From Roseibacillus persicicus (GTDB lineage: Bacteria > Verrucomicrobiota > Verrucomicrobiia > Verrucomicrobiales > Akkermansiaceae), in contig NZ_BMXI01000010.1 in assembly GCF_014651675.1 (NCBI RefSeq), positions 124,001 to 188,000 of the forward strand: 64,000 nucleotides of DNA, given 5' to 3'. Numbering within the stretch: the stretch's first letter is position 1; every line of letters starts with the position of its first letter. The notes below the pieces were generated by a model. The model was not told the origin of the DNA. It did not search any database and saw nothing but the letters and a program-made list of their open reading frames with translations. A program made the translations under genes and the position numbers. Positions 25,678 through 42,760 of the stretch are shown in pieces.

Positions 25678-26652
25678 ATGAAATTGATGAAAACAATGCT
25701 CTGCGGAGCACTCGCAATGGGCCTCAGTGGCTTTGCGCCAGCCGACACTCTGAAGATCGGCTATAGTGATTGGCCCGGTTGGGTTGCCTGGGAAATCGGA
25801 ATCAAGAAAGGTTGGTTCAAGGAGGCGGGAGTGGATGTGGAGTTCGAGTGGATGGACTATGTGGCCTCGATGGAAGCCTATGGTGCTGGCCAGATTGATG
25901 CCGTTTGTATGACCAACGGTGATGCCCTGGTCACTGGAGCAACAGCGAAGCCGTCAGTTTGTATTGTGATCAATGATTATTCCAATGGCAACGATATGGT
26001 TGTTGGCCAGCCCGGGATTGAATCGATGAAAGACATGAAGGGTAAGAAGATCGCCTTGGAAGAGGGCTTCGTGCCGCACCTTCTTGTTTTGAAGGGGCTG
26101 GAAGCTGCGGGGATGTCCGAGTCCGATATTGAGATTGTGAATACTCCCACTGACGAGACTCCCAGTGTGCTTGCTTCCAAGAAAGTGGATGCCATCTGTG
26201 CGTGGCAACCGAGCTCTGGAACCGCATTGAAGGAGGTGGAAGGCTCCAAGCCAATCTATACTTCCGCAGAAGCTCCGGGCCTGATTTATGACTGTCTGTT
26301 TGTTAGCCCCGAGACCCTCAAGAGCAATCGTGAGGATTGGGTGAAGGTTGCCAAGGTGTGGTATAAGATCGTCGATTTCCTCAAAGATGAGGATAACATC
26401 GATGAAGCTTTGGAAATTCTTTCCGGTCGGGTCAATGTGAAGCCTGACGAGTATGAGCCATTCCTCGATGGCACCTACATCATGACTATGGAAGAGGCTC
26501 TCAAGGTGTGGGAAGAAGGGGAAGGATTGAAGTCTATTTATGGCTCCACCAAGATCTCCGACGACTTCAACGTCAAGTATGAGGTCTACGAGAAGCCTCT
26601 CGAGATCGGCGTCTATCTCGACCCGAGTATCACAAAAGAAATCGCGAAGTAG
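25678..26652 (+). CDS. NitT/TauT-type ABC transporter substrate-binding protein
   Basis: The 324-residue exported receptor has a signal peptide ending in FAPAD (about residue 22), then the family start [32 protein letters not shown] and the SSUA/THI5-like [18 protein letters not shown]. Relatives bind nitrate, taurine, sulfonates or pyrimidine precursors. Relatives encoded beside guanidine/urea carboxylases are annotated as carboxylase-associated transporters and may bind guanidine. Substrate here is inferred from position. Confidence 0.88.
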
Positions 26653-26732
26653 GGTCTCTGCCCCCAATGATTTTTTCACAGGGGTCGGGAGTGTTTGATG
26701 AGATCTTCCGGCCCCTTCTTTTCTCACAATAG

Positions 26733-28193
26733 ATGATGAGCAAACGAACGAAACCTCGTGAACCATGGTTTGCGGTCGGCAAGCCACTCAGTGGCTATCA
26801 GGCTGCGATCCCAATGGCGCTTTCGTTTGTGATTCCGATTCTCATCTGGTGTTTTGCGGCTTATGCCCCGTTTCTCTGGCATGTTGATTATCGCATCACC
26901 ATGACCTCCGAGCCATCTGACAAAGAGGCTTTTCCGGCTACCTATGTGGTCGACGATACGATGGAGGAGAGCTTCTTCGAGAGCTTCCAGGATTCCATCA
27001 GACAGGATAACAAGATCTTAAAAGAGCAACGTGAGGCTGGGACCGTCGAAGTTGCCAGTGCGCGGGCAGGCCGCCGGGCAAATCAAAAGGTTCTCAAAAA
27101 TTTCGAACCGGTCATGCGGGCGAACGGTTGGTTCACAACCGAGAAAACGGAGGAGAATGTGAGCGCCTATTTCAAAGCCTACTTCGCAGCCACTTACGAG
27201 ACGTGGGGCAAGTTGGCTGCGGGAGAGTTGAAGCCGGCTTCGGGTACTCTTTCGAGAGAGAACCTGGCGATCGTAAAGGACAATTGGGCGCTCTTGAGTT
27301 CGGTCTCGCCAACCTATGATTCCGGTAACTTTCTAAGCGAACCCATCTACCGGCTGATTCCCGAGGGTAAGAAAGTGGTGGGGCGTCCAGCCTATCTTCC
27401 GGCACCGCACGAGGTTGTCGTGAGGGGGTGGCAGGATTTTCGCGGGGAATCAGAACTGGGTGAACTGAATGTCTGGGAGAAGTATGCATCCTCCCTGCGG
27501 GTGGTAATTAGTGGCTTCTTGCTCTGCGTTTTGATCGGAATTCCGTTGGCTCTTCTGGCGGGGACTTTCTCGTTCTTCGCCAGGCTCTTCGAGCCTTTCA
27601 CTGATTTTTTCCGCTACATGCCAGCCCCGGCCTTCGGGACGGTTTTAATGGCCATCTTTGGCGTGGATCAGCAACCCAAAATTGCGCTCGTGTTTCTCGG
27701 CACTTTTCCGCAATTGATTCTGATGGTGGCCAACACCACTCGGCTGTTGGAGCAGCCTATGCTGGATGCGGCGCAGACCCTTGGGGCCCGCAAGGGACAG
27801 TTGGTCTGGCGGGTGGTGGTGCCGGGGATCCTTCCCAGTCTCTACAACGATCTGCGCATCCTATTGGGCTGGGCTTGGACCTGGCTGGTCGTTGCGGAGT
27901 TGATTGGGACAAAGAGTGGCCTGACTGAAATCATTGATACCCAGGGGCGCCGTTTCCACTTCGATCACGTGTATCCCATTATCCTTTTGATTGGTCTAAC
28001 AGGTTTTCTAACCGATCAGGTTTTGGCCAACCTGCGGGACATCTTTTTTCCTTGGGCCACAGAGGGTAAGAAGTCTCCCTTGGCCCGTCTTTTCCGATGG
28101 GTTGGCAGCCGGGTGCAAGCTTGGCGCGATGTCGATCCCCCCGTTGCGCCTGTGACTGTTGAAGCCTCAACCGAAGGAGAATCTCACCCATGA
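26733..28193 (+). CDS. NitT/TauT-type ABC transporter permease with long N-terminal insert
   Basis: The 486-residue product is about 200 residues longer than usual permeases of this class. One helix at about 29-50 is followed by an extracytoplasmic stretch of about 200 residues (about 55-245), then the membrane core with five or six helices. The conserved EAA-loop [42 protein letters not shown] region is clear. The long insert may help dock the binding protein. It overlaps the ATPase gene by ATGA. Confidence 0.9.
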
Positions 28194-29086
28194 ACGAGCA
28201 GATCGAACTACCCAGCTACCTCGAGCAATCACCGGAGGTCGCCGCTCGCTTTCAACGGATTCAGGCGCGCCCGGAGGTGCTCAAGGTTGCCAATATGGGG
28301 AGGGTCTTCGACTCTAACAAAGGGCCGGTGCAGGCGCTCAATGACATCAACTTTTCAGTAAGGCGTCGTGAGTTCGTGTGTGTGATTGGCCAGTCCGGAT
28401 GTGGCAAGTCGACCTTGATTCGTATTCTGGCGGGGCTCGACCAGCCGACGTCCGGGCAAGTTCTCTGTGACGGGGAGCCGGTAACTGGGCCGGGGAAAGA
28501 TAGGGGAATGGTCTTTCAGGGCTATACCTTGTTTCCATGGTTGACGGTGAAGCAGAATGTGATGTTCGGGCCTGCGATGGAAGGGCGCAAGGGGCAGGCG
28601 GCTGAATCCGAGGCTCTGCAGTGGATCGAGATGGTGGGCTTGGAGAAATTCGCGGAATCCTATCCAAGCGAACTTTCGGGGGGCATGAAGCAGCGGGTGG
28701 CTATTGCCCGAGCGATGGCGAATCAGCCACGTATTCTATTGATGGACGAGCCCTTTGGCGCGCTTGACGCTCAGACTCGGGCGCAAATGCAGCAGCATCT
28801 TTTGCAGATCTGGCGAGCCGTTGATGCGACCATTTTGTTCATCACTCACGACTTGGATGAGGCCGTTTTGCTGGCGGATCGGATATTGGTTCTGGGGGCG
28901 AATCCAAGCCGGGTGCAGGAGGTGATTGAGGTTCCCGTGCCACGGCCTCGCACACTTGACCAGTGCCTTTCCCCCTCATTTCTGGCGACCAAGAAGAGAC
29001 TGGAAGAGCTCATTCATCCCCAGACCGAGCGGAAGGCTTCGTTCAAGATTCCGCGTTTGGTAGCCGCTGACGACGACGTGCTCTAA
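28190..29086 (+). CDS. NitT/TauT-type ABC transporter ATP-binding protein
   Basis: The 298-residue ATPase shows Walker A ([18 protein letters not shown]), Q-loop ([12 protein letters not shown]), signature [15 protein letters not shown], Walker B ([16 protein letters not shown]) and switch His ([10 protein letters not shown]). An N-terminal extension of about 30 residues ([15 protein letters not shown]) is seen. It completes the transporter with the two preceding genes, and the creatininase gene follows within 5 bases. Confidence 0.95.
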
Positions 29087-29090
29087 GGTG

Positions 29091-29897
29091 ATGAAAGATT
29101 CTCTCTATCAAGACCCCACTGTGTCTCAGTCCTGCCGACTGGAAAGGCTTTCGTGGACGGAAATTGCCGAGTTGCAGAAGAAAACCAACTGCCTTCTGGT
29201 TCCGGTTGGGGCGACCGAGCAACATGGTCCTCATTTGCCGATCAACACCGATTCAGTGATTGCGGAGAAGGTTTGTGATTACGCCTCGGGCAAGACCGGG
29301 GTGCCGGTGCTTCCAGTGATGGCTTACAGTGTCTCGGCGGGGCATACCACGAAGTGGACCGGAACGTTCTCGATGAGTCACGCGACCTTCATTGAGGCGA
29401 TTAAGGATTTGGTGGGCTTTGCGGTAGAAACTGGGTGGCGGCGGGTTGTTCTTTTAAATGCGCACATGGGGAATGATGCTTCGCTACGAGTTGCGGTCGA
29501 TGTGCTGCGGGTCAAGTATCTGGGGCAATTGCAGATTGTGGTCGTTAATTCCTTCACCCTGAGTGACGAGATTTGGCAATACTTTATCAGCGACGCAGCT
29601 GACCTCCACGCCAATAAGGGTGAGACAGATCTCATGTTACATCTTGCGCCGGATACGGTGCGGATGGAGGTGGTGGAAGACGATCCCGACCGCACCACGG
29701 CGACCGTTTTTAGCTACCCTGTCTCTCAGACCAGCCTCAATGGTGTTACCGGGAATCCGAGTGAGGGGAGTGCTGCACAGGGAGCCTGGCTTTTTGAGAT
29801 GATGGGGGAGGCTCTGGCTTCCCTGCTGGAAAGGGCGCTTGAGGAAGAGCCTCCCTTGCCGAAGTCCGCCTGGGAGGGGACCGGTTTTTCTTTCTAA
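29091..29897 (+). CDS. Creatininase-family amidohydrolase
   Basis: The 268-residue product belongs to the creatinine amidohydrolase family, whose members open cyclic amides or deformylate using a dimetal site. Metal-ligand regions are visible: [16 protein letters not shown] (Glu, His, Asp), [13 protein letters not shown] and the late segment [13 protein letters not shown] (His, Glu). ATG at 29091 follows AAGGTG. Known family substrates include creatinine and formylated pyrimidine fragments. The real substrate here is unknown, but it lies between a guanidine-type transporter and a GlnT-like ligase. Confidence 0.85.
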
Positions 29898-29919
29898 CAA
29901 AACTAATACTTTTAAAACT

Positions 29920-31281
29920 ATGAAAACGGACGAAGAGATTCTAGCCATTCAGGCCGACCTGAAGGCCCGGGGAGTGAAATATTGTGTGGGCGCCTACGTG
30001 GATATTCATGGTGTGCAGAAGGGGAAATTTGTCCCCATTGACCACTTCCTTCACTTCGCCCATGGGTCGGAGCTTTACACGGGCTATGCCCTCGATGGTC
30101 TGGGGCAAGGGCCGAGTGATGATGAGATTTCTTCGGTGCCGGACTTGGATCACATCATTCAATTGCCCTGGCAAAAGGAAGTGGCGTGGATGCCGGCGGA
30201 CAATGCCTTTCAAGGGAAACCGTATGAGGTCAATACCCGCGTGGCTTTGAAAAAGCAGCTCGCTGCCGCCGCAGAGATGGGTTTGGGGATGAATTTGGGA
30301 ATCGAGTGCGAGCTCTTTATTCTCAAGCAAGAGGAGGATGGTTCCCTAGCGATTCCGAACTCCGACGACAATCTCACCAAAGCTTGCTATGACGTGAAGC
30401 GCTTCATGGATAGGTATGAGTGGATCGACAAGATTTCCACCACGATCAACGATCTGGGCTGGGACCTCTACAGTCTCGATCACGAGGATGCCAATTCCCA
30501 GTTCGAGTTCGACTTTCAATACGCGGATGCTCTCACGATGTGTGATCGCTTCATCTTCTTCCGGTATATGGCCAAGCAATACGCGGCTGAGGAGGGTCTG
30601 ATCGCAACGTTTATGCCCAAGCCTTTTGCGGACAAGACGGGAACGGGCGCGCACTTCAATATGTCCATGTTTGACTTGGAGAGCGGCGAGAATCTGTTCA
30701 AGCGTGATCCGGCTGATGATCCGAGAGGGTTGGGAATTAGCGAAATGGCCTATCACTTTGTGGGTGGAATTCTGAAGCACGGTCCGGCCCTGTGCGCAAC
30801 CTTCGCGCCTACCGTGAATAGTTATAAGCGGCTTGTTCGGAGGGGGCTGATGCCCTATTACTCGTGGGCTCCGGTTTTCAATAGTTTTGGTCGAAATAAT
30901 CGGACGAACTCCATGCGGGTGCCGATGGGTGGGGGGCGCGTGGAAAGTCGCAATGCGGACGCGGCCTGTAATCCGTATCTGGCAGCGGCCTTGGCCTTGG
31001 CAGCTGGGCTGGAGGGGATCAGGGAGAAGATTGATCCGGGTCAGGCGCAAGAGGACAATCTCTATGAATTGTCTCATGAAGAATTGAAAGAACGGGGGAT
31101 TTCCGAGCTTCCGCAAACTTTGAAGGAAGCGGTGGCGGCCTTTGCAGGTGACCCCTTTGTTGAGCAGGCTCTGGGCAGCGAGTTGCGCCAGGAGTTCATT
31201 ACTTACAAGAGTGAGGAGTGGTTGCAATACCACCAGCGGGTTTCCCAGTGGGAGATCGAACAATACGCGCGGCTTTATTAG
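29920..31281 (+). CDS. GlnT/type III-like glutamine synthetase family ligase
   Basis: The 453-residue product matches the GlnT class (TIGR03105-like) of glutamate ligases, shorter than GlnA. Seen are GIECELFIL (metal-binding Glu), [36 protein letters not shown], the ATP loop with [16 protein letters not shown] and the [25 protein letters not shown] catalytic region. Members make glutamine or gamma-glutamyl amides such as gamma-glutamylmethylamide. It may trap an amine released by the operon onto glutamate, which is an inference. Upstream in-frame codons overlap the creatininase gene, so the ATG at 29920 was chosen. Confidence 0.9.
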
Positions 31282-31297
31282 TCACCTCAGCACTGCG

Positions 31298-31840
31298 ATG
31301 AAAAGCGAACGCCGCGATTTTCCGGTTCATTATCTTGCGACTGCTCCAGGGGAGTCGCGGCCCTTGTTGGCGAAGACCGAAAAGGCTTTTGGGATGATTC
31401 CCAACCTCGAGCGAACGATGGCGGAAGCGCCGGTTCTGTTAGAGGGTTATGGTCAGCTTTGGGAGTCTTTTGGGAAGAGTTCTTTTTCTGCGATTGAACA
31501 ACAGGTGGTGATGCAGGCGGTGAATGTGCGCCATGCCTGTGACTACTGAGTGCCGTGGCACACTTTTCTGGCGCGTGACGTCGGAATGTCTGAGGAGGAT
31601 GTTCAAGCCTTGGAGGCTGGGCGGCCTTTGACTGACGCTCGCTTGGAGGCGTTGCGTTGCTTTACGAATGCCTTGGTGGACGGTCGGGGTCATGTTTCCG
31701 AGGAGGAGTGGAGTGCTTTCGTGGATGCGGGTTGGGGTCATCAGCAGGCTTTGGAAGTTGTTTTTGCAGTTGGGATGAAGGTGATGAGTAATTTCACGAA
31801 TGCGCTGGCGGGTGTTCCGCTGGATGAGGCGGTGAAATAG
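31298..31840 (+). CDS. AhpD-like (carboxymuconolactone decarboxylase family) selenoprotein candidate
   Basis: The gene is read through an in-frame TGA at 31547-31549 into a 180-residue protein. The TGA takes the place of the second cysteine of the AhpD motif: VRHACDY-TGA-VPWHTFLAR, giving Cys81-Asp-Tyr-Sec84 with the conserved His four residues later (His88). The frame continues with normal family sequence (LTDARLEALRCFTNALV, ALEVVFAVGMKVMSNFTNAL). AhpD-like proteins with CxxU are an established bacterial selenoprotein family. The role is probably peroxide or thiol reduction, perhaps protecting the Rieske oxygenase encoded next. The nonsense-mutation alternative is unlikely at this exact codon. 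Confidence 0.88.
31568..31584 (+). promoter_or_regulatory. SECIS-like hairpin in the AhpD-like selenoprotein mRNA
   Basis: Bases 19-35 after the TGA form CUGGCG-CGUGA-CGUCGG, a 6-bp stem with two G-U pairs and a 5-base loop beginning 25 bases after the TGA. The loop has G then U at positions 2-3. Loop size, place and GU agree with the other candidate at 3842-3856. No bulged U was found. Confidence 0.55.
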
Positions 31841-31897
31841 AGGCGGCATGGAAGTTGCTCGCTCGGAGTGTGAACTATTTCTCGAATCGTAATAAAA

Positions 31898-33232
31898 ATG
31901 AGACTGACTGAAGAACGGGTGAGAGAGGCGTGTGCCATGGGGACCAAGAGACCTGCTGTGGGGGGTGCTCAGTCGAATTTGGAAGAATTGTTGGCTCAGA
32001 TTGAGGAGTCGGCGGACCTTCCGCTTCCGCAGGCCATGTCTCTGCCTTCCGCAGCCTATACTTCAGAGGAGTTCTTTCAGTGGGAGAATGAAGAGGTGTT
32101 TCGCAAGGAGTGGCTTTGCGTGGGCCACGTTTCGCAGATTCCGTTGGCGGGGGATTTTCTGAATTTGGATCTTTTGGGCGAGCCTCTCATTGTGGTGCGT
32201 GGCAAGGACGAACAAGTGCGTGTACTCTCACGGGTTTGTCCTCATCGGGCGATGGACATCATGCCAGAGGGTTTTGGGTATGATGGTCACGGGATTGGGG
32301 ATCGACGCGAGGAAGGGGGGCCGGATTGTGGTCATGCGCGGCTGTTTCTTTGTCGTTACCATTCGTGGACTTTTGAACTGGATGGGGGACTGAAGGCCTG
32401 TCCTGAGATGCAGGAGGCGGAGGATTTTTGTCGAGATGAGGTGGGCTTGAAGGAATTCCGAAGTGAAGTTTGGGAAGGGTTTGTCTTTGTGAATCTGGAT
32501 GGGGAGGCACCCATCAGTGTCGGGGAGCAATTGGCAGGATTGCAGGAGAAGGTAGCGAAGTGGAACTGCGGGGAGATGGTGGTGGTGAACGCGCAGGAGT
32601 GGGATTGTCCTTTCAATTGGAAGGTGATGATTGAGAACTTTATGGAGAGCTATCATCATGCGGGCGCGCATGCAAAGTCTCTCCAGACGATGATGCCGGC
32701 TAAGGACACTTGGACGGAGGAGGAGAAGGCTCACTACATCCGATGCCATTTGCCGATGAAGGAAAAGGTGCGCAAGGAGATTGCGGAACAGGAGGCGAAA
32801 GGTGGTCAATGGGATGCTTTTCCTAAGATTGAAGGGCTGAGTGATGAGGAGCGGCATGAGTGGGGTCTTCATCTTGGGTTCCCGACCTTTATGTTTGTGG
32901 TGCTCGCGGACTGCGCGATTTGGTATCGCTTGCAGCCAGAGTCGGCGGGACGCTGCAAGTTGGTGACGACCATGCTGGTGCCTGGCGAGACGGTTAAGGA
33001 GGAGGGTTTTGCCGAGATGTTAGAGCGGGGCGTGCGGGAGGCGACGGAATTTCATTTGGAAGATATGGAGGTCTGCACGGCGGTGCAGCGGGGGCATTAT
33101 TCGCGAGTGACGAAGCCCGGTCGCTTGAGTCACTTGGAGATGCCGGTGTGGTTGATTCAACGCTATCTGGCCGCGCGTTCGCGGGGAACGTGGCCCACTC
33201 AAGATAGGGAGCCGGCGCAGAGCCAGAAGTGA
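31898..33232 (+). CDS. Rieske non-haem iron oxygenase, alpha subunit
   Basis: The 444-residue product resembles ring-hydroxylating and amine-demethylating Rieske oxygenases (GbcA/CntA/stachydrine demethylase group). The [2Fe-2S] site is CPH and CRYH, but the spacer is 35 residues rather than about 17, because of an insert rich in Gly and Asp. The mononuclear iron site region is ENFMESYHHAGAH. It needs a reductase, and none is encoded in the window. Hydroxylation or N-dealkylation of the operon's substrate is a reasonable guess. The ATG at 31937, with GAGAGAGG before it, is an alternative start. Confidence 0.9.
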   Translation: MRLTEERVREACAMGTKRPAVGGAQSNLEELLAQIEESADLPLPQAMSLPSAAYTSEEFFQWENEEVFRKEWLCVGHVSQIPLAGDFLNLDLLGEPLIVVRGKDEQVRVLSRVCPHRAMDIMPEGFGYDGHGIGDRREEGGPDCGHARLFLCRYHSWTFELDGGLKACPEMQEAEDFCRDEVGLKEFRSEVWEGFVFVNLDGEAPISVGEQLAGLQEKVAKWNCGEMVVVNAQEWDCPFNWKVMIENFMESYHHAGAHAKSLQTMMPAKDTWTEEEKAHYIRCHLPMKEKVRKEIAEQEAKGGQWDAFPKIEGLSDEERHEWGLHLGFPTFMFVVLADCAIWYRLQPESAGRCKLVTTMLVPGETVKEEGFAEMLERGVREATEFHLEDMEVCTAVQRGHYSRVTKPGRLSHLEMPVWLIQRYLAARSRGTWPTQDREPAQSQK

Positions 33233-33241
33233 AAAGGGGAT

Positions 33242-34000
33242 ATGAACGCGGCGAACTTCGAGGGTAAGGTGGTGGTGGTGACGGGGGGCGCTTCGGGGAT
33301 TGGGGCGGCGATTTGTGAGGTTTTTCAAGAAGCGGGAGCGAAGGTTTGGTGTGCGGATTTGGAGTTGGCGGATGGCAAAGGATGGGAGTCGCGGGTTTGT
33401 GATGTTTCGGATGAAACGCAGGTGACGGCTTTCTTTGAGGAGGTCTTTGCGGAAGAAGGTCGTTTGGATGTGGTGGTGAATAATGCGGGGATTCAGCCGC
33501 TGGGAGTCAGTATTGCGGAGACCACGCCAGAGTTGATGAACAAGACGCTGGAGGTGAATGTGTCGGGAGCTTTGTGGGGGGTGAAGCAGGCTGCGGCCCG
33601 GATGACGGCGGGGGGAAGCGTGGTGAATTTGGCTTCCTTTGTGGGAACTCTGGGAGTGCCGGATGGGATGGCCTATGCGGTGTCGAAGGCGGGAGTAGCT
33701 CATCTGACGAAGTGCGCGGCGCTTGAGTTGGCAGGGAAGGGGATTCGGGTGAATGCGGTGGCGCCGGGGACGATTCGCACGCCGGCGGTGGAGGGGATTC
33801 CGGATAACCCGGAGATTCCCTTTGTGGAAGGTCGCACGCCGTTGGGGAGGTTGGGGGAGCCGGAGGAAGTGGCTCGGGTGGTGTTGTTTTTGGCTTCGGA
33901 GGCGGCGTCTTATATTACGGGGGCGATTGTGCCGGTGGATGGAGGAATCTCGGCTGGATGGGAGCGATATGAACTCAAGTTGGGGGACTTTCCGTTGTAG
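33242..34000 (+). CDS. Short-chain dehydrogenase/reductase (SDR)
   Basis: The 252-residue classical SDR has the cofactor motif TGGASGIG, an acidic residue after the second strand (CADLELAD) favouring NAD+, NNAG, the active-site Ser (NLASFVG) and YxxxK (YAVSKAG), and ends with the PVDGGISAGW motif. It probably oxidises an alcohol or reduces a carbonyl formed by the Rieske step. It lies 9 bases after the Rieske gene and directly abuts the next ATG. Confidence 0.93.
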   Translation: MNAANFEGKVVVVTGGASGIGAAICEVFQEAGAKVWCADLELADGKGWESRVCDVSDETQVTAFFEEVFAEEGRLDVVVNNAGIQPLGVSIAETTPELMNKTLEVNVSGALWGVKQAAARMTAGGSVVNLASFVGTLGVPDGMAYAVSKAGVAHLTKCAALELAGKGIRVNAVAPGTIRTPAVEGIPDNPEIPFVEGRTPLGRLGEPEEVARVVLFLASEAASYITGAIVPVDGGISAGWERYELKLGDFPL

Positions 34001-34660
34001 ATGAGAGAGATTTCGGAATTGGTGCCATTGCCTGCGGGCGAGTTTTGGATGGGTGGGGAGCAAGATGATAAGTTCGTCACCGACGTGGAGCGGCCTCGTC
34101 ATCGGGTGACGATTTCGGCAGGGACTTCGCTGGGTCGGTTTCCGGTCACAGAGGGAGAGTTGTTAGGAAATGGAAAAAGGATTCCTGCAGTGGGGATTTG
34201 TTGGGAAGAGGCCAAGGAATTTGCGCAGTGGGTGGGTGAGCAGGCAGGCGGGCGGGGGCGTTTGGCAACGGAGGCGGAATGGGAGTGGGCTGCGCGGGCT
34301 GGGCAGACGGTGGCAAGGACTCCCACTGCGGAGGAGGCTAATTTTCTCTATAGTGAAGATGGGGAGAAGGTGGGAGAGGGGGCGCTGAGCGAGGTGGGGA
34401 GGTATTCTCTGAATGAGTTTGGGTATGGAGATTTGTTTGGGAATGTTTTGGAGTGGGTGGAGGACTGTTGGCGGCCGAGTTATGAAGGCGCTCCCAAGGA
34501 TGGGAGTGCTTGGGTGGGGTCAGGAACCCGGAAGGTGGTTCGGGGAGGGGCTTGGGACCACTTGCCGCGATTGCTGAGGGCGAGTTGGCGTGATGGGATG
34601 CTAGCGGAGGCTCGTCAGGATAATCTGGGTTTTCGAGTGGCAGTCGATTTTCGAAAGTGA
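34001..34660 (+). CDS. SUMF1/formylglycine-generating-enzyme-like protein without catalytic cysteines
   Basis: The 219-residue product carries the SUMF1 fold: FWMGGEQDDKF, ERPRHRVTIS, PVTEGE, ICWEEAKEFAQWV, GRLATEAEWEWAARAG, NEFGYGDLFGNVLEWVEDCW and VVRGGAWDHLPRLLRASWRDG...LGFRVA. In true sulfatase-activating enzymes the segment after RGGSW holds the copper-binding cysteine pair; none is present here. It should not activate the sulfatases at 50-61 kb and may be a scaffold or an oxygenase-like relative. No signal peptide. Confidence 0.85.
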   Translation: MREISELVPLPAGEFWMGGEQDDKFVTDVERPRHRVTISAGTSLGRFPVTEGELLGNGKRIPAVGICWEEAKEFAQWVGEQAGGRGRLATEAEWEWAARAGQTVARTPTAEEANFLYSEDGEKVGEGALSEVGRYSLNEFGYGDLFGNVLEWVEDCWRPSYEGAPKDGSAWVGSGTRKVVRGGAWDHLPRLLRASWRDGMLAEARQDNLGFRVAVDFRK

Positions 34661-35526
34661 TGAAGGTTGATTTTGTTCCGTTTCTGCCACCCGGGTTGCA
34701 TCCTGGGATGGATGCTTTGGCTCGAGGCTTGGCGAGAGGGGTTTCTGAGCGAGGGGGAGAGCTGCGGTTACGGACTGGGACGATGGGGGAATCCGTGCGG
34801 GCGAGTATTGGGGAGGGGGTGGATGCGATTTATCTCTTTGTGACCGATCCGTTGGAGGCTGAGGAGGAGGTGAAGGAAGCGCTGGCGGAGGGGATTCGAG
34901 TGATGACCTTTCATCTGCCGGCCTACGAGGTGACGGCTTCGGTGTTGGTGCCGAATTTCTATCAGGGCGTGGAGCTTGCGACTCAATTGGCGAGGAGGCT
35001 TGAGAAGAGGGCTCGCGTAGCGATTTTGGGTGGGCCGGAGATTCTCGATGACGAGGAGCTTGTGCTGGGATGTCTTGATGGTGCGCGACGAGCGGGCTTG
35101 GAGGTATTGAATGATCCTTTTGCAAGCCAGTATCGCAATTTGGAGGATGTGAAGGGGGTTTCGGGTGCGGTTGTTGAGCGGTTGATGGGGGACCTTTATC
35201 CTTTTGATGGTTTGATTGTTTTCAATGATGAGACCCTTCATGATGTGGTGGCTTATCTGAAGGAGAAGAGTCTCGCGGGGAGCTTTCCCATTGTTTCGCG
35301 CAATGGCAGTCCGGCGGCGATTGAGTGTATTCGGCAGGGTCTGTCGACTGCGACTCTTGATTATCATTTGCCTGAGATTGGAGCGTTAGGCGCTGGTCTG
35401 TTAGATGGCGGGGGGGCGCTTGTGATGGCTCCGGCGGGTCAGGTTTATGATTCCTCGAATCTGGAAATGGCCATTTCGTGGGAGGTGCGGGCTCCATTCG
35501 ATATTTCTTTGAATGTTATTTCTTGA
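34660..35526 (+). CDS. Cytosolic periplasmic-binding-protein-like protein
   Basis: The 288-residue product has the type I binding-protein fold (LacI-C/RbsB-like): repeated alpha/beta units such as EGVDAIYLFVTDPLE, LEKRARVAILGGPE, YPFDGLIVFNDETLHDV and IECIRQGLSTATLDYH. It lacks both a signal peptide and a DNA-binding domain, so it probably senses or carries a ligand in the cytoplasm. It starts at ATG 34660, one base inside the stop of the SUMF1 gene. I know no close characterised relative. Confidence 0.65.
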   Translation: MKVDFVPFLPPGLHPGMDALARGLARGVSERGGELRLRTGTMGESVRASIGEGVDAIYLFVTDPLEAEEEVKEALAEGIRVMTFHLPAYEVTASVLVPNFYQGVELATQLARRLEKRARVAILGGPEILDDEELVLGCLDGARRAGLEVLNDPFASQYRNLEDVKGVSGAVVERLMGDLYPFDGLIVFNDETLHDVVAYLKEKSLAGSFPIVSRNGSPAAIECIRQGLSTATLDYHLPEIGALGAGLLDGGGALVMAPAGQVYDSSNLEMAISWEVRAPFDISLNVIS

Positions 35527-36503
35527 TGAAAAAATCAGTTGTTATTCTTGATTTGGGCACGGTTTACCTCACCGAGAGCCAGCAGGCTTGGCTGGCAAGG
35601 ATGGGGGAGGCTGTGATTTACGACCGTACTTCGTCGGAGGAGATGCTGGATCGACTTCATGGGGTGGAGATTGCGTTGACGACCAAATGTCCCTTTGATG
35701 CGGCGCTGCTCGATCAGCTTCCGGATTTAAAGTATATTGGGGTGTTAGGAACGGGTTACGATATGATTGATGTCGCGGCTGCCCGTGAGGGCGGGATTAC
35801 CGTTGCCAGTGTGCCGACTTATTGCACCGCCGCGACGGCACAGCATGTTTTCGCGCTTTTGCTGGCGATGACGAATCATGTCGGTTCGTTATCGACGGGA
35901 GTTCGGCAAGGGCGATGGTGTGAGGCGGATGATTTTTCCTATTGGGATAAGCCGTTGGAAGAGTTGGAGGGAATGAGCCTAGGAATTGTGGGCTTTGGGC
36001 GCATTGGTCGGAAGGTGGCGAAGTTGGGGGATGCCTTTGGGATGGAGGTCATTGTTCGGTCTCGGTCGGGAGAGGAGTTTCGAGAGGGCTATGTGGCGAG
36101 ACCGCTAAATGAGTTGTTGGGCATGAGCGATGTGGTGACCTTGCATTGTCCCCTGACCTCCGAGACGCATCAACTGATGAATGAGGAGCGGCTCGCGTTG
36201 ATGAAGAAGGGGAGTCGGCTTATTAATGCGGGTCGTGGCAAGTTGGTGGATGAAGCGGCATTGGCGGAGGCGTTGAGGTCGGGTCATCTTCGGTCTGCGG
36301 CCGTCGACGTTTTGAGTTCCGAGCCGCCGAGTCCTGATAATCCGCTTTTGAACGCATCTAACTGTATCGTGACGCCTCATGTGGCTTGGGCGACCACGGC
36401 GTCGATTGGGAGGCTGTTAGATGCGGTGTTGGACAACCTTGAAAGCTATTTGAAGGGAGAGCCGAAGAACGAGGTGCTCGACTTTGAGAAGGAGGAAGGA
36501 TGA
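35526..36503 (+). CDS. D-2-hydroxyacid dehydrogenase (glycerate/hydroxypyruvate type)
   Basis: The 325-residue product has the D-isomer 2-hydroxyacid dehydrogenase layout: substrate loop LGTGYDMIDVAAARE, NAD motif GIVGFGRIGRKV, catalytic Arg (INAGRGKLVD), Glu (DVLSSEPPSPDNPLL) and His (VTPHVAW). Relatives reduce glyoxylate or hydroxypyruvate. A C2 or C3 oxo-acid product of the upstream oxygenase/SDR steps would be a fitting substrate, but this is inferred. Its ATG overlaps the previous stop codon. Confidence 0.92.
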   Translation: MKKSVVILDLGTVYLTESQQAWLARMGEAVIYDRTSSEEMLDRLHGVEIALTTKCPFDAALLDQLPDLKYIGVLGTGYDMIDVAAAREGGITVASVPTYCTAATAQHVFALLLAMTNHVGSLSTGVRQGRWCEADDFSYWDKPLEELEGMSLGIVGFGRIGRKVAKLGDAFGMEVIVRSRSGEEFREGYVARPLNELLGMSDVVTLHCPLTSETHQLMNEERLALMKKGSRLINAGRGKLVDEAALAEALRSGHLRSAAVDVLSSEPPSPDNPLLNASNCIVTPHVAWATTASIGRLLDAVLDNLESYLKGEPKNEVLDFEKEEG

Positions 36504-37309
36504 TGAAACTTCGAACTTTTCAAACTCTGTGGGGATGGGAGGGGAGTGCGGAGGAGGCTTTGTTGGCAGCTCGTGGTAGAGGCTTTGATGGTTTGGAAGG
36601 ACGGATGCGAGAGGGGTGGGAGGATATCTTTTGCGAGAGCGATTATATTGCCGAAATCGTGACTGGGGATGATTATGCGCCAAAGATTCGAAAGGGAATC
36701 AGAGAACATGGGGATGACTTGCGCCGAGGAATCGAAGCGAGTTTGAGAGGGAAACCCCGTTTTGCGAATGTGCTGGCGGGGTGCGACTGGTGGTCTTTTG
36801 CGGACAAGGTGGCTTTTGGAGAGATGTTTCTCGAGATGGAGAAGGAGTATCAGTTGCCGCTGTCGTTGGAGACTCATCGCAGCCGGATAACCTTTCATCC
36901 TTGGGTCACGCGAGACCTGTTGGCTGAGCTGCCCGAGTTGATGCTGACTTGTGATTTTAGTCATTGGTGTTGTGTGACGGAGCGGTTGGTGATGGATGAG
37001 GAGCCAGAACTATTACGGCTCTTAGCTTCCCGCTGTCGGCATGTGCACGCTCGAGTGGGCTACGACCAGGGGCCACAGGTTCCGGCTCCCAGATTGGAAA
37101 AGTATCGCGAGGAATTGGAGGCGCATCTGCGTTGGTGGAAAAGCTTGTGGGATTTCTTGAAACTGCATGAGCGAGATGAGTTCACGATGACCCCTGAGTT
37201 CGGACCCGATGGCTATCAGCAATCGAGTCCAGAGTCCGGAGAGGTCTTTGCTCCGCTGGGGGAGATCAATAGCTGGATGGGAGACTGTCTCCGGGCGGTC
37301 TTTCGCTAG
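36500..37309 (+). CDS. Sugar-phosphate-isomerase-like TIM-barrel protein
   Basis: The 269-residue product has the AP_endonuc_2/xylose-isomerase-like fold. Possible metal ligands are Glu in LSLETHRSR, Asp/His in LTCDFSHWC, His in CRHVHARVG and Glu in MTPEFGPDGY. GGAGGAAGG precedes the start; ATG at 36503 is equally possible. It is the last gene of the coupled operon before the guanidine module. The substrate is not predictable from the sequence. Confidence 0.8.
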   Translation: MMKLRTFQTLWGWEGSAEEALLAARGRGFDGLEGRMREGWEDIFCESDYIAEIVTGDDYAPKIRKGIREHGDDLRRGIEASLRGKPRFANVLAGCDWWSFADKVAFGEMFLEMEKEYQLPLSLETHRSRITFHPWVTRDLLAELPELMLTCDFSHWCCVTERLVMDEEPELLRLLASRCRHVHARVGYDQGPQVPAPRLEKYREELEAHLRWWKSLWDFLKLHERDEFTMTPEFGPDGYQQSSPESGEVFAPLGEINSWMGDCLRAVFR

Positions 37310-37372: not shown

Positions 37373-37834
37373 ATGGCAGAGCGGGAACAAGTAGACCGAA
37401 TTAGCTTATCGTTACCGGCAGGGTTGCTGGAGAGATTTGATATGCTGGTAGATGAAAGAGGCTTCGATAGTCGTTCGCAGGCGGTAGGGGAACTGATCTC
37501 GCGCGAGCTGGATCGTTACTCGGCTTCGCAGGGGCGGCAGATCATGACGGGGACCATTGTATTGGTCTACGGCCATACCAACGGTGATCTGAAGCGACGC
37601 TTGGCCGATATTCAATACGACCACATCGCGGAGGTGATTGGGTCTCTGCACATCTTACTCGAGAAAGAGCATACCATGGAGGTGGTGATTGTGCAGGGGA
37701 AGGCCAACAAGTTGCGAAAAATTGCCAATGAGTTGATTACGTGCAAAGGGGTGACCAGTGGGTCGATGACCCTGACCTCGTCGCTGATGCCGCCGGTGCA
37801 ATATCCGGCAGAGGTGGATGATCTCACCGTATAA
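37373..37834 (+). CDS. NikR-like ribbon-helix-helix regulator lacking most nickel ligands
   Basis: The 153-residue product has an N-terminal ribbon-helix-helix ([19 protein letters not shown]...[14 protein letters not shown]) and a C-terminal ACT-like domain as in NikR. In E. coli NikR the high-affinity nickel site is His76, His87, His89 and Cys95. By my alignment ([20 protein letters not shown]) only the His87 equivalent is kept; the others are Tyr, Leu and Thr. It may therefore sense something other than nickel, or use another site. It heads the guanidine module. Confidence 0.85.
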
Positions 37835-37838
37835 TGCC

Positions 37839-38561
37839 ATGGACTCAAATATCATTTATCAAGAAAAGCTGACTGGCGCGGGGATGTGGTCCAAGGTTAT
37901 CGGTCGAGGCAAAGTCTTGCGCCTGACGGATCTGGAAGGAGGGGCCAATGTCGGGATGTTACTCTACAACGCGCTGGAGCGAACCGAACGCTACAACATG
38001 CCGGATACCTTGAAGGGGCAGCAGGTCTTTTACCTGACTGAAGGAGTCTGTCTGCATTCCGATATGGGAAGGTTGCTGGGCTCGGTGGTGCGGGATACCA
38101 TGGGCTGGCATGATACCGTCTGCGGAGTGACCAACGAGGGAGTGGTGCGGGAGAAGTATGGCGAGTTGAGCTATCAAGAGGGAAAAAACGATTTTTACCG
38201 AAGTGGCTTCGAGTGCTTCCTGATTGAGTTGTCCAAGTGGGGACTGAGCGAACGCGACTTGGTTCCGAATATCAATTGGTTCAGCAAAGTCGTCTCGAAT
38301 GAGGAGGGGGGGCTTTCCTTTGTGCCAGGAGCTTCATCGGCAGGTGCCGTGGTCGAGATTCGTTTCGAGCTCGATACTCTAGTGGTGCTGAACACTTGTC
38401 AGCATCCCTTGGACCCTGATCCAAACTATGCACCCAAACCAGTTTTGATGGAGGTCTTTCCTGCCGAACCGGTGGGTGAAGACGATCCTTGCCTGAACTC
38501 TCATCCGGAGAACGGACGCGCGATGGAGAACACCGTGAACTACAACACCCTACGATTCTAA
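37839..38561 (+). CDS. DUF1989 protein, carboxyguanidine deiminase subunit (UAAP1 type)
   Basis: The 240-residue product belongs to the urea-carboxylase-associated (DUF1989) family. Two such proteins form carboxyguanidine deiminase (CgdAB), which converts carboxyguanidine to allophanate and ammonia. Seen are [49 protein letters not shown] and [13 protein letters not shown]. The ATG at 37839 was chosen because the longer frame overlaps the regulator. Together with the next two genes it makes this a guanidine rather than only a urea pathway. Which CgdA/B label applies was not assigned. Confidence 0.85.
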
Positions 38562-38562
38562 G

Positions 38563-39210
38563 ATGAAACAGGTCGCAAGCAATTTGAATCCAGATCAAGC
38601 GGTGATGCGCGAGGTTATTGGAGCGGGAGACTATTGGTGGGAAGTGGTGAAAGCAGGTCAGGTGATTCGAATCATTGATTCCGAAGGCAATCAGGCCGCC
38701 GATACTCTCTTTTATTCGGCCTTGGATTCAGCTGAACGCTACAGCGCGGCGGATACTATCCAGCGGCAGGGAGCTCTTTATCTGACGGCTGGTTCGACGC
38801 TCTACTCGAATCTAGGAAGCGAGATGTTAGAGATCATAGCAGATACCTGTGGTCGGCATGATACCGTGGGAGGAGCCTGTTCACGGGAGAGCAATACGAT
38901 GCGCTATTCATTGGAAAAGGAGCCGATGCATGCTTGTCGCGATAGCTTCATCCGGGGCGTGCAGGAGATGGGCGGAGACAAGCGGGATGTGACCTGCAAT
39001 ATTAATTTTTTCATGAACGTGCCAGTGACTCCTGAGGGAGGGCTACGATTCGAGGATGGGATTTCAGCGCCGGGTCGCTATGTGGAGTTGAAGGCGCTGA
39101 TGGATGTGATCATTCTGATTTCCAATTGCCCTCAGCTCAACAATCCTTGTAACGGGTGGAATCCGACGCCGATAGAGGTCGTGATTTGGGAGGGAGGCGA
39201 CGATGTTTAA
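38563..39210 (+). CDS. DUF1989 protein, carboxyguanidine deiminase subunit (UAAP2 type)
   Basis: The 215-residue partner of the preceding protein shows [57 protein letters not shown] and a late [17 protein letters not shown] region, all typical of the second DUF1989 subfamily. It starts one base after the preceding stop and overlaps the carboxylase gene by 8 bases, indicating coupled translation of complex partners. Confidence 0.87.
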
Positions 39211-42200
39211 GAAGGTTCTCATTTCCAATCGCGGTGAAATTGCGCTCCGCATTAGCCGTACCCTCCGAAAGATGGGGATTCAGGTGGTGGCTGTTTATTC
39301 CGAGGCTGACCGCAGCGCGCCACATGTTTTGGAGGCGGATGAGGCCTATCTCTTGGGCCCCAGTCCGGTGTCGGAGAGTTATCTCAATGTTGAACGTCTG
39401 TTGGCGGTCATTGCTGAGAGCGGCGCTGAGGCTGTTCATCCCGGTTATGGTCTTCTGAGTGAGAATTCGGCTTTTGCCGATCAGGTGGAGGCTGCTGGCT
39501 GTGTCTGGCTGGGGCCTACTGGCCAGCAGATGGAGCAATTCGGAAAGAAGCATGCCGCGCGTGAGTTGGCGGAACGGACCGGAGTGCCTCTTTGTCCGGG
39601 GACAGATTTGCTGGTTTCGGTAGGTGCTGCGGTGGAAGCGGCGGAGGAACTGGGCTATCCCGTAATGCTGAAAAGTACTGCCGGTGGAGGGGGGATCGGA
39701 ATGCAGGTCTGCGCGAATCGGGGTGAGTTGGAGGCCGCTTTCGCAACCGTGGTCAGGTTGGCGGAAAGCAACTTTGGCGAAGCCGGGGTCTTTCTCGAGC
39801 GCTATGTGGTTGATGCCCGGCATATTGAGATTCAGATTTTTGGCGATGGAGCAGGCAAGGTGGTGAGTTTAGGTGACCGGGATTGTTCGGCGCAGAGACG
39901 GAATCAAAAAGTGATCGAGGAGACCCCGGCGCCCGGGATTAGTTCTGAGCAGCGGGCTGAAGTGACAGCGGCGGCAGTGAGCCTGGGGAGTGGAGTGAAC
40001 TACCGTTCTGCGGGAACTGTGGAGTTCATCTATGATACCAAGCGGCAGGAGTTTTATTTCTTGGAAATGAACTGCCGTCTTCAGGTCGAGCACGGCGTGA
40101 CCGAGCTGGTGACGGGGGTTGATATCGTGGAATGGATGGTGCTGCTCGGAGCGGGAGACAGTCCTATCGCAAATGTGGAAACCGTTCCTTGCAAGGGGGC
40201 GGCGATTGAGGCGCGAATCTATGCCGAGGATCCTGGCAAAGACTATCGGCCGAGTTCGGGGATGATCACCGAGGCAATCTTTCCGCATGGGGTACGCTGT
40301 GATACTTGGATTTCCGCCGGAACAGAGGTGAGTGCTTTCTATGATCCACTGCTGGCGAAGGTCCAGAGTTATGGGAAAGACCGGGATGAAGCGGTAGCGA
40401 TTTTGGCGCAGGCGATCTCTGAAACTCGCATCGGAGGAGTGCGCACCAATTTGGCCCTGGTGGGTGAGATTCTGGAAAGTTCAGCCTTCCGTGAGGGAGG
40501 GGTAACAACCCGCTGGTTGCCAACGCTGACCTATGCCCCAAGGACCTTCGAGGTCTTGCGAGGAGGAACCATGACAACCGTGCAGGACTGGCCTGGACGC
40601 TTGGGCTACTGGGATGTGGGAGTGCCGCCCTCGGGGCCCATGGATTCTGTTGCCTTTCGCTTGGCTAACCGCTTGGTGGGGAACGCAGAGGGAACTGCCG
40701 GTTTGGAGATCACGATGGCAGGACCAAGTTTGCGATTTGGTTGCGGGGCGACGGTGGCTCTCACTGGGGCGGAGATGCAGGCGACCTTGGATGGCGAACC
40801 GGTAGAATTCTGGAAAACCTTCAAGGTGGAGGCCGGTCAGACACTGGATATTGGAGCTTCAAAGGATGCGGGTTGTCGAAGTTATCTCGCGATTGCCGGC
40901 GGGATTGATGTGCCAGAGTATTTGGGGAGCCGTGCCACCTTCACCCTCGGGCAATTCGGCGGGCACAGTGGTCGGGCGTTGGTGGCTGGCGATGTGTTGG
41001 ATATCTTTGAGGAAGGATCGGGTCAGGCTGAGAAAGTTGAGCCTTTGGTCTACCCGAATCATTGGGAGATCGCGGTGCTATATGGTCCCCATGGTGCGCC
41101 GGACTTCTTCACGGAGGAGGATATTGAAACTTTCTTCGCTACGGATTGGGAAGTGCATTTCAACTCAGCGCGCACCGGGGTCCGCTTGATTGGGCCGAAG
41201 CCCAAGTGGGCCCGTCCCGATGGCGGGGAAGCCGGATTGCATCCTTCGAATATTCATGACAATGCCTATGGCATCGGGGCGGTCGATTTCACTGGAGACA
41301 TGCCGGTCATCTTGGGGCCGGATGGACCGAGCCTGGGTGGATTTGTCTGCCCTGCAACCATCATCGAAGCTGATGTCTGGAAGATGGGGCAGCTGCGCCC
41401 GGGCGATACCATTCGTTTCTTGCCTGTCTCCATGGCGGAGGCCGACCGGCTGCGCGGCGAACCAATTGGTCAAGCTGTGGTGGCACCCGATTCGATCGAG
41501 TGTGAGAACCCGGTCATCGCGACTACCGAAGTGGACGCCGTGCCGGTTGTGGTGAGGCGAACCGCCGATGAATATGTCTTGTTAGAGATTGGGGAGATGG
41601 AACTCGACTTGCGGCTGCGCTTTCGGGTTCACCTTCTTTATGAATGGTTGAAGAAGGAGCCGCGCTCCGGCTTTGTCGATCTCACGCCCGGGATTCGCTC
41701 CCTGCAGGTTCACTACAATCCAGGCGCAACCTCGGAGGGTGAAGTGGTGGCCCTTTTGTTCAAAGGGTTGCAGGAATCGCCGCCGCTGGCCGAGGCCGAG
41801 GTGAGCTCGCGGGTGGTTCACTTGCCGCTTTCCTGGGATGATCCAAGCACCCAGTTGGCGATTGAGCGCTATGCCTCCGGGGTTCGTCCCGATGCTCCCT
41901 GGTGTCCGAGCAACATCGAGTTCATCCGGCGAATCAATGGCCTCGACTCCATTGATGAGGTGAAGGAAATTGTCTACGACGCCGATTATCTGGTGATGGG
42001 ATTGGGCGATGTCTATCTGGGGGCTCCGGTGGCGACTCCTTTGGACCCACGGCATCGTTTGGTCACGACCAAATACAATCCGGCACGGACGTGGACTCCT
42101 GAGAACGCGGTTGGAATTGGTGGAGCCTATTTGTGCATTTATGGGATGGAAGGTCCGGGAGGATATCAGTTTGTGGGGCGAACGGTGCCGATCTGGAATC

Positions 42201-42760
42201 GCTATCAGTCCACACCGGTTTTTGTGGAAGGAAAGCCCTGGATGCTGCGCTTCTTTGACCGGATCAAGTGGTATGAAGTTTCGGCTGATGAGCTGATGAC
42301 CTTGCGAGAACAGGTTTTGACTGGTCAGTTCGTGCCGAAGGTCGAGGAAGGTCGTTTCAACCTCGGTGAGTATATTGACTTTCTAGAAAGAGAAGCGGAT
42401 TCCATTGCGGACTTCAGGACCCATCAGCGAGCGGCCTTCCAAGAAGAGCGCGAGCGTTGGGAGGCGGCGGGGTTGAATGTGGTAGATGCCGAAGAGGTCA
42501 TCGAGGCCAGTGCGGAAGTGGTTGTGCCAGAAGGCTGCGTGTTGGTGGAAGCTCCCATGGCAGGCAGCGTCTGGAAGATCGAGGCTGAAGAGGGTGATAC
42601 GGTTTCCGCTGAGGAGACGGTGGTCATTCTCGAAGCGATGAAGATGGAGATGGCGGTTCCCTCGGTGGGGGCTGGAAAGGTGGAACAGGTTTTAGTGACA
42701 GCGGGTGGTCAAGTGAAAGCTGGCGACGGGCTGATGATTGTGAGAGTGGAGGCAAGTTGA
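39203..42760 (+). CDS. Biotin-dependent guanidine/urea carboxylase
   Basis: The 1185-residue enzyme carboxylates guanidine (or urea) with ATP and bicarbonate. Domains: biotin carboxylase at about 1-450 ([41 protein letters not shown]), KipA-like at about 455-770 ([25 protein letters not shown]), KipI-like at about 780-1000 ([15 protein letters not shown]), then a biotinyl domain at about 1110-1185 with Lys1147 in EAMKMEM. The two DUF1989 neighbours favour guanidine as substrate. Substrate choice is reported to depend on an Asn/Asp residue in the carboxyltransferase domain, which I could not place with certainty. Overlaps atzF by 4 bases. Confidence 0.93.

Follow-up and report, generated by a model that had tools for sequence, protein, structure and literature searches.

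The closest described system is that of MgdH and MgdL, which are encoded within the gca (guanidine carboxylase) operon of Vreelandella boliviensis and demethylate methylguanidine. In that work, the system combines a lyase with a 2-oxoglutarate (2-OG)/Fe(II) dioxygenase and has guanidine riboswitches of its own, and the hemiaminal N-(hydroxymethyl)guanidine is unusually stable, enough so for a dedicated lyase (PMC12508155). We analysed a stretch of 64,000 nucleotides from Roseibacillus persicicus (the window, part of a 5.28 Mb draft genome), in which nine genes at 29091-37309, one of them encoding a Rieske oxygenase, adjoin the genes for guanidine breakdown. As in the MgdH/MgdL system, an oxygenase has been added to a gca operon with an ABC transporter, CgdA/CgdB and allophanate hydrolase, and the proposed end product is guanidine. 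Unlike that system, the window has a Rieske protein, a SUMF1-like protein, a TIM-barrel protein, a short-chain dehydrogenase (SDR) and a NikR-like regulator (MgdL is set apart from these by its description only), and a 2-OG/Fe(II) dioxygenase Pfam domain was found in none of the nine genes. The word "Rieske" does not occur in PMC12508155, and no description of the cluster was found in the literature on guanidine, Rieske and guanidine carboxylase, in a search that mostly left subscription papers and preprints aside.

The conserved oxygenase gene set, located next to guanidine genes in many Verrucomicrobiota, probably trims larger guanidine-containing molecules to guanidine for nitrogen use, and on our best reading the module may do with a Rieske enzyme what is done by the published MgdH/MgdL system, which provides a precedent for demethylation with unrelated enzymes. 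We consider the chances about even that the module extends guanidine carboxylation as an add-on, in which oxidative N-dealkylation of an N-alkylguanidine feeds the carboxylase, with methylguanidine as the lead candidate for the substrate. A Rieske N-dealkylase that delivers guanidine had already been suggested in an earlier reading of the letters and open reading frames (ORFs) alone (the sequence-only reading), and it stands as the likeliest explanation.

A layered gene cluster

The nine ORFs all lie on the + strand, and their family assignments were confirmed by Pfam/NCBIfam profile matches and, for the last, by a structure model. The sequence-only reading had described named families on one strand, the last five genes coupled, located between a NitT/TauT transporter and guanidine-degradation genes, all of which is borne out by the profile matches and coordinates: the SDR stop and the SUMF1 start abut at 34000/34001, the following junctions overlap by 1 base (34660), 1 base (35526) and 4 bases (36500-36503), the transporter occupies 25678-29086 and the downstream flank at 37373-44496 encodes a NikR-like regulator, CgdA, CgdB, guanidine ('urea') carboxylase and allophanate hydrolase. 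The urt and urease genes of the window are located outside these flanks.

The nine genes are not one evolved unit; the cluster is layered. Layer 1 comprises the NitT transporter, the NikR-like regulator, CgdA/CgdB, guanidine carboxylase and allophanate hydrolase, layer 2 the creatininase-family hydrolase and GlnT, and layer 3 the Rieske, SUMF1-like and TIM-barrel proteins, often with an SDR, a deacetylase-like hydrolase, AhpD, GFA or a second transporter. The features of the window are as follows.

25678..29086, + strand: NitT/TauT ABC transporter (binding protein, permease, ATPase; Pfam NMT1, BPD_transp_1, ABC_tran), layer 1
29091..29897, + strand: creatininase-family hydrolase (PF02633, 199.8 bits), layer 2
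29920..31281, + strand: GlnT, type III glutamine-synthetase-like ligase (TIGR03105, 637.1 bits, above the cut-off of 469.6), layer 2
31298..31840, + strand: AhpD-like protein with a CxxU motif and an in-frame TGA at 31547-31549 (PF02627)
31898..33232, + strand: Rieske oxygenase alpha subunit, CntA/Stc2-like (PF00355 and PF00848), core of layer 3
33242..34000, + strand: SDR (PF13561)
34001..34660, + strand: SUMF1/FGE-domain protein (PF03781, 137.3 bits)
34660..35526, + strand: Peripla_BP_4 binding protein (PF13407), local addition
35526..36503, + strand: D-2-hydroxyacid dehydrogenase (PF02826/PF00389), local addition
36500..37309, + strand: xylose-isomerase-like TIM-barrel protein, 269 residues (structure model), core of layer 3
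37373..37834, + strand: NikR-like ribbon-helix-helix regulator (PF08753/PF01402), first of the guanidine genes
37818..39210, + strand: CgdA and CgdB (UAAP1, UAAP2), carboxyguanidine hydrolase subunits (TIGR03425, 312.9 bits, and TIGR03424, 325.8 bits, both above cut-off)
39203..42760, + strand: guanidine ('urea') carboxylase, gca (TIGR02712, 1799 bits, above the cut-off of 1304)
42757..44496, + strand: allophanate hydrolase (TIGR02713, 724 bits, above the cut-off of 511)

With carboxylase, CgdA, CgdB and allophanate hydrolase all above their cut-offs and a NitT importer upstream, the window holds a full locus for guanidine breakdown by carboxylation. TIGR02712, named for urea carboxylase, is a model that we take to cover largely guanidine carboxylase, and the adjoining CgdA/CgdB genes support reading its match as such here. 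The transporter, with TIGR03427 as its best NCBIfam match (159.5 bits, under the cut-off of 333.9), is a probable guanidine importer.

A scan for the Rieske protein yielded 38 related loci, 33 with Verrucomicrobiota-type and five with Proteobacteria labels (those of the metagenome-assembled genome (MAG) records). Genes were mapped by tblastn (E 1e-8, at which diverged copies can be missed) on 39 related stretches (L008-L045 plus L056), many of which stop at contig ends, so that the gene counts are minima. Layer 3 was found as SUMF1-like and TIM-barrel genes (29 stretches each), SDR (22), deacetylase-like (21), AhpD (8) and GFA (7), with a second transporter represented by the binding protein SBP2 in 14 and permease 2 in 13 stretches. 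GlnT was present in 25 and the creatininase-like gene in 24; guanidine genes lay within 15 stretches (CgdA/B 15, NikR 12, guanidine carboxylase 12), many of the 39 ending at contig edges. Most of the gene set recurs in similar order, far beyond chance. The order in L020, for instance, is transporter, creatininase-like, GlnT, AhpD, a second GlnT, Rieske, SDR, SUMF1-like, deacetylase-like, TIM-barrel, NikR, CgdA, CgdB, carboxylase and allophanate hydrolase, which is nearly the full set. The binding protein recurs in one stretch only (L045) and the 2-hydroxyacid dehydrogenase in none, and these two are local additions in the window. The search for the gene set across genomes that the sequence-only reading had called for shows most of the set to be conserved and these two genes to be local, which contradicts the claim of a single nine-gene system.

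As a control we used 20 stretches round gca from 19 genomes, taken from 36 gca places over cut-off; 18 of these genomes have no Rieske match and one (G131) has its Rieske gene on a different contig. Layer 1 is nearly complete there (SBP1 in 19, NikR in 18, CgdA/B in 19 and allophanate hydrolase in 16), and the creatininase-like gene and GlnT were each found in 7, GFA in 1 and a LuxR-type regulator in 1. By the same tblastn mapping, Rieske, SDR, SUMF1-like, deacetylase-like, TIM-barrel, AhpD, SBP2 and permease 2 were found in none of the 20. This distribution indicates a guanidine base, on which come first the creatininase-like gene and GlnT and then the Rieske module; the former pair also occurs where a Rieske gene is lacking (7 of the 20 guanidine stretches), which likewise disagrees with one system. 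The absence of layer-3 genes other than GFA from the control stretches speaks for the Rieske module as an add-on. A GFA-family gene within a guanidine locus without a Rieske gene was observed at L070:13471-13839 (G248).

Association with guanidine carboxylase across genomes

A gca gene over the curated cut-off was found in 33 of 40 distinct Rieske-carrying genomes (34 of 41 searched; G131 is the genome of L033, an Opitutia MAG, and was counted once), vs 35 of the 288 genomes of a phylum sample, in which the Rieske protein itself was found in 4 at E 1e-30, the own genome included. The association is strong by a Fisher test (p about 2e-20, with three Rieske genomes removed from the background and G166 counted as gca-negative in both groups), a value that ignores phylogeny and serves as a guide only. 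In some genomes, e.g. G131, gca and the Rieske gene are on different contigs. The TIM-barrel gene was present in 38 of the 40 Rieske genomes (missing in G311 and G320), whereas of 18 gca genomes that lack a Rieske match only G035 had it, as a lower-scoring match. The recurring gene order with gca, cgdA and cgdB and the frequency of gca in Rieske genomes speak for the N-alkylguanidine reading.

The sequence-only reading had linked the genes with guanidine breakdown and had named as evidence against it any homologous operon that lacks guanidine genes and has another, known substrate; gca in 33 of 40 Rieske genomes bears out the link, and no such set was encountered.

G131 carries two guanidine-carboxylase-type genes (L063 and L072). 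One follows a urt urea-transporter operon, with no CgdA/B in the stretch, and may be a true urea carboxylase; the other belongs to a full guanidine locus.

Proposed chemistry and competing explanations

The model of the window's Rieske protein (predicted local distance difference test score, pLDDT, 87) is closest to the solved structure of CntA, with the stachydrine demethylase Stc2 next; 20 to 24 percent of residues are identical over the model. CntA has a bridging Glu205 and the ligands His208, His213 and Asp323, and its Tyr203 is described as essential in ligand recognition (PMC7948474). Glu250, His253, His258 and Asp389 are invariant in all 33 aligned Rieske rows; the first three align with E205, His208 and His213 of CntA, and Asp389 was matched to Asp323 by conservation only, since the pairwise alignment ends before it. 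The fold, the bridging glutamate, the His-His-Asp iron site and the lack of a beta subunit among the nine genes are common to the window protein and CntA/Stc2. Because the model is nearest to CntA and stachydrine demethylase and Glu250 matches the bridging glutamate, the protein is read as an N-dealkylase. It differs from CntA in having Phe248 in place of Tyr203 and about 18 additional residues between the two Rieske ligand pairs, and from both enzymes in its guanidine gene context and in having no adjacent reductase. Against the glycine betaine monooxygenase GbcA model NF058607 it scored 131.9 bits, with a cut-off of 670.

In the tree of the 33 rows (the window and 32 of 44 Rieske places, with L056; one was dropped for a stop in range and the others for size) several clades were seen, with several weak deep forks and long branches that meet. 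L022, L023 and L035 have two Rieske genes each, from different clades. In one clade, most of the Verrucomicrobiota members have permease 2/SBP2 ahead of the Rieske gene, but so do members of the window's clade (L008; in L009 SBP2 only), and the clades are therefore not cleanly separated by type of transporter.

In the proposed route, an N-alkylguanidine would be imported (methylguanidine or a dimethylated guanidine is the likeliest), and the CntA-like Rieske enzyme would hydroxylate the carbon adjoining the nitrogen to give a hemiaminal. In some versions a lyase, for which the TIM-barrel and SUMF1-like proteins are candidates, would split this into guanidine and an aldehyde, and the GFA-family protein would handle formaldehyde; a GFA-family gene (PF04828) belongs to the cluster in 7 of the 39 stretches and points to formaldehyde. 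In versions with an SDR, the hemiaminal would be oxidised to an N-acyl (formyl) guanidine, and an amidohydrolase (deacetylase-like or creatininase-like) would cleave it to guanidine and an acid. Guanidine would then pass via the carboxylase, CgdA/CgdB and allophanate hydrolase to ammonia. The gene set, its layering, the linkage, the families and the conservation of active sites are results; the substrate, the order of the steps and the choice of lyase or amidase are our proposals. SDR plus amidohydrolase may be a second route that resolves the hemiaminal via the N-acyl guanidine. SDR and deacetylase-like genes tend to occur together, both being present in 19 stretches, SDR only in 3, deacetylase only in 2 and neither in 10 (34 stretches, the five Proteobacteria-labelled ones dropped). 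The deacetylase-like gene is absent from the window cluster; the copy in L008 is nearest to 3rxz, followed by peptidoglycan deacetylase and PuuE allantoinase.

Several observations weigh against N-alkylguanidine dealkylation by this module. The scan for loci used exact peptide patterns of the window's Rieske protein and so favoured close relatives. Seven of the 40 Rieske genomes have no gca over cut-off (G166, G293, G312, G304, G306, G309 and G319); the Rieske match of G166 is only 32 percent identical, and gca is fragmentary in G293 (two halves at contig ends) and G312 (fragments). The five Proteobacteria-labelled MAGs carry the Rieske gene without the rest of the set, gca being over cut-off in 4 of the 5 and a TIM-barrel relative being located elsewhere in 4 of the 5. 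Two Rieske types are found in some clusters, so one reaction may not fit all. No reductase is encoded among the nine genes, and a search of the genome for FAD_binding_6 gave a single match, a fusion protein elsewhere. The SUMF1-like, AhpD and binding proteins have no role in the proposed scheme (apart from the candidacy of the first as a lyase), the scheme accounts neither for the electron donor nor for the pairs of Rieske and GlnT genes in some clusters, and sequence alone does not reveal a substrate.

The fusion protein that is the only FAD_binding_6 match (L109, G000:C6:57752-57946 region) combines, by eye, membrane desaturase-like, Rieske ferredoxin-like and reductase domains, and its gene adjoins an aldo-keto-reductase-like gene.

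The natural sources of methylguanidine are described as elusive (PMC12508155), and the Rieske module touches this open question for guanidine and methylguanidine alike. If the proposed dealkylation is true, a Rieske release module in Verrucomicrobiota is a second, independent oxygenase solution and Rieske chemistry extends to guanidinium substrates; the cluster offers a small set of testable genes.

The alternative that the Rieske enzyme cleaves, CntA-style, the C-N bond of a longer guanidino compound (a guanidino acid, agmatine-like or homoarginine-like) appears unlikely. Its products would be guanidine and a semialdehyde or oxo-acid, to be processed by the SDR and the local 2-hydroxyacid dehydrogenase, in line with the conversion of carnitine to trimethylamine and malic semialdehyde by CntA, the closest solved relative (PMC12445004), with the frequent SDR (22 of 39 stretches) and with the presence of the dehydrogenase in the window. 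That dehydrogenase, however, recurs in none of the 39 stretches, and the GFA-family gene in 7 of them suggests formaldehyde instead.

Other alternatives depend on GlnT, for which the nearest solved structure is 9qur, a glutamate-methylamine ligase. Type III GlnT over cut-off was found in 11 of 276 phylum-sample genomes; all 11 have gca, and 10 of the 11 copies lie within the gca locus (G048 is so counted, although its carboxylase gene lies on another contig, at the edge). The structural work on the methylamine ligase GmaS names catalytic Asp177, Glu186 and Arg312 and the pocket residues Gln175 and Asn188 (PMC7948447). Like GmaS, the GlnT proteins are type III ligases that retain the catalytic residues (40 of 40 rows) and have no Asp at the position of Asp50 of the glutamine synthetase ammonium site. 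Unlike GmaS, they are linked to gca and have Ser for Gln175 and Asp for Asn188 in all 39 rows from gca or Rieske loci, with Thr at the position of Ala48. The single off-locus copy (G066, L087) keeps Gln, Asn and Ala, and both solved methylamine ligases also align with Gln and Asn. The linked clade therefore probably has an acceptor other than methylamine. Asp at position 188 of GmaS may be the ancestral glutamine-synthetase state, so that Asp alone does not point to guanidinium. Capture of methylamine by GlnT was put low, and the amine capture on glutamate of the sequence-only reading is unlikely in the methylamine sense. Since gmaS serves as a marker of methylamine-using bacteria (PMC7948447), the residue switch that separates gca-linked genes from methylamine ligases is relevant to its use.

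It is conceivable, yet distinctly improbable, that the guanidine-linked GlnT is a gamma-glutamyl-guanidine or glutamyl-methylguanidine ligase, which together with the creatininase-like and Rieske proteins would form a capture-trim-release route under a NikR-fold regulator that has lost nickel sensing. Slightly more doubtful is glutamylation as the first step, in which GlnT would couple a guanidine compound or amine to glutamate, the Rieske enzyme would oxidise the conjugate and the creatininase-like protein would free the glutamate. Aniline and 1-naphthylamine degradation combine a glutamine-synthetase-like ligase with a Rieske dioxygenase in one catabolic cluster, as is the case here; differences are that a Rieske beta subunit and a glutamine-amidotransferase-like hydrolase are both missing from the nine genes, which encode a creatininase-like hydrolase instead. 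A precedent for glutamylation is found in 1-naphthylamine degradation (PMC11335346), and the gca linkage and non-methylamine pocket of GlnT agree with it. The occurrence of the creatininase-like gene and GlnT in 7 of the 20 Rieske-free control stretches does not, and neither do Rieske-SUMF1-TIM units in stretches without GlnT (L033 and L044; the L033 genome, G131, has GlnT on another contig).

Equally doubtful is a nitrogen-scavenging island, in which the Rieske enzyme would act on an unrelated quaternary amine of the betaine type and the guanidine genes would be neighbours serving a fellow nitrogen source. The substrates of the closest solved relatives (carnitine and stachydrine), the frequent second NitT transporter (SBP2 14 of 39, permease 2 13 of 39) and the urea genes close by in the window, L012, L020 and L034 are in line with this; the recurring interleaved order with gca and the strong genome-level link argue against it.

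Least probable by far is that a true creatininase starts the degradation of creatinine or creatine and that oxidation then yields methylguanidine and guanidine, for which family membership and the reported abiotic formation of methylguanidine from creatinine (PMC12508155) can be cited, and against which stand the TIGR04448 score of 133.6 bits, under the curated creatininase cut-off of 235, and the metal site. Creatininase-like copies all keep Glu34, His36, Asp45 and His120 where covered. Of 31 copies, 28 have G and 3 have T at the position that we take to be the metal ligand Glu122 of the creatininase CrnA, and the one taken to be Tyr121 is Tyr in only 1 of 31. Ring opening of creatinine was accordingly put low; a route from creatinine by way of creatol to methylguanidine was considered as well. 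Amide opening by a creatininase, as claimed in the sequence-only reading, is unproven. With the metal-site residue lost and the amine pocket of GlnT different, both earlier assignments need changing. Another enzyme annotated as creatinine amidohydrolase turned out to be a formamidase (PMC9478397).

Other proteins of the cluster and its regulation

The in-frame TGA of the AhpD gene at 31547-31549 very probably encodes selenocysteine: in the alignment 7 relatives have a Cys codon at this place and L018 likewise has TGA, and the genome has tRNA-Sec (anticodon TCA) and SelA. The predicted fold after the TGA was no better than that of shuffles (z 0.50 and -0.80), and no selenocysteine insertion sequence (SECIS) was recognised in AhpD.

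The 269-residue protein at 36500-37309 had no Pfam or NCBIfam match. Its model (pLDDT 90.8; Z 19.6 to Art22) is closest to sugar epimerases and to IolE/UlaE/AsbF types; as the fold search gave only this broad superfamily, no reaction is assigned. E124, D152, H181 and E233 are invariant in an alignment of the window with 27 of 29 TIM-barrel places and may bind a metal. In gammaproteobacterial MAGs (L102-L105), TIM-barrel relatives lie beside a glutamine-synthetase-like ligase in convergent orientation, and in L102 an agmatine-deiminase-like gene (Pfam PAD_porph) is close by.

Formylglycine-generating enzyme (FGE) has a copper-binding catalytic cysteine pair. No Cys was found in invariant or near-invariant columns of 29 aligned SUMF1-like sequences (the window and 28 of 30 places; L034, with a stop in range, and L019 were left out), so the FGE cysteines are lacking there. 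The binding proteins at 34660-35526 and L045:11356-12219, both beside Rieske-module genes, have by eye no evident signal peptide and are possibly cytoplasmic.

The NikR-like regulator has Cys at the nickel-ligand position in none of the rows covering it, and His89 is lost in most; these positions are presumably Cys95 and His89 of E. coli NikR. No guanidine riboswitch was found in the window or in 7 related loci at the gathering threshold, nor at 18000-49000 at E up to 3, and the regulator may sense guanidine or another ligand, replacing guanidine riboswitches. Matches to the Rfam family 5_ureB_sRNA were observed in the window at 44720-45050 on the minus strand (antisense to ureC) and at L020:1195-1481; they probably reflect conserved ureC coding sequence.

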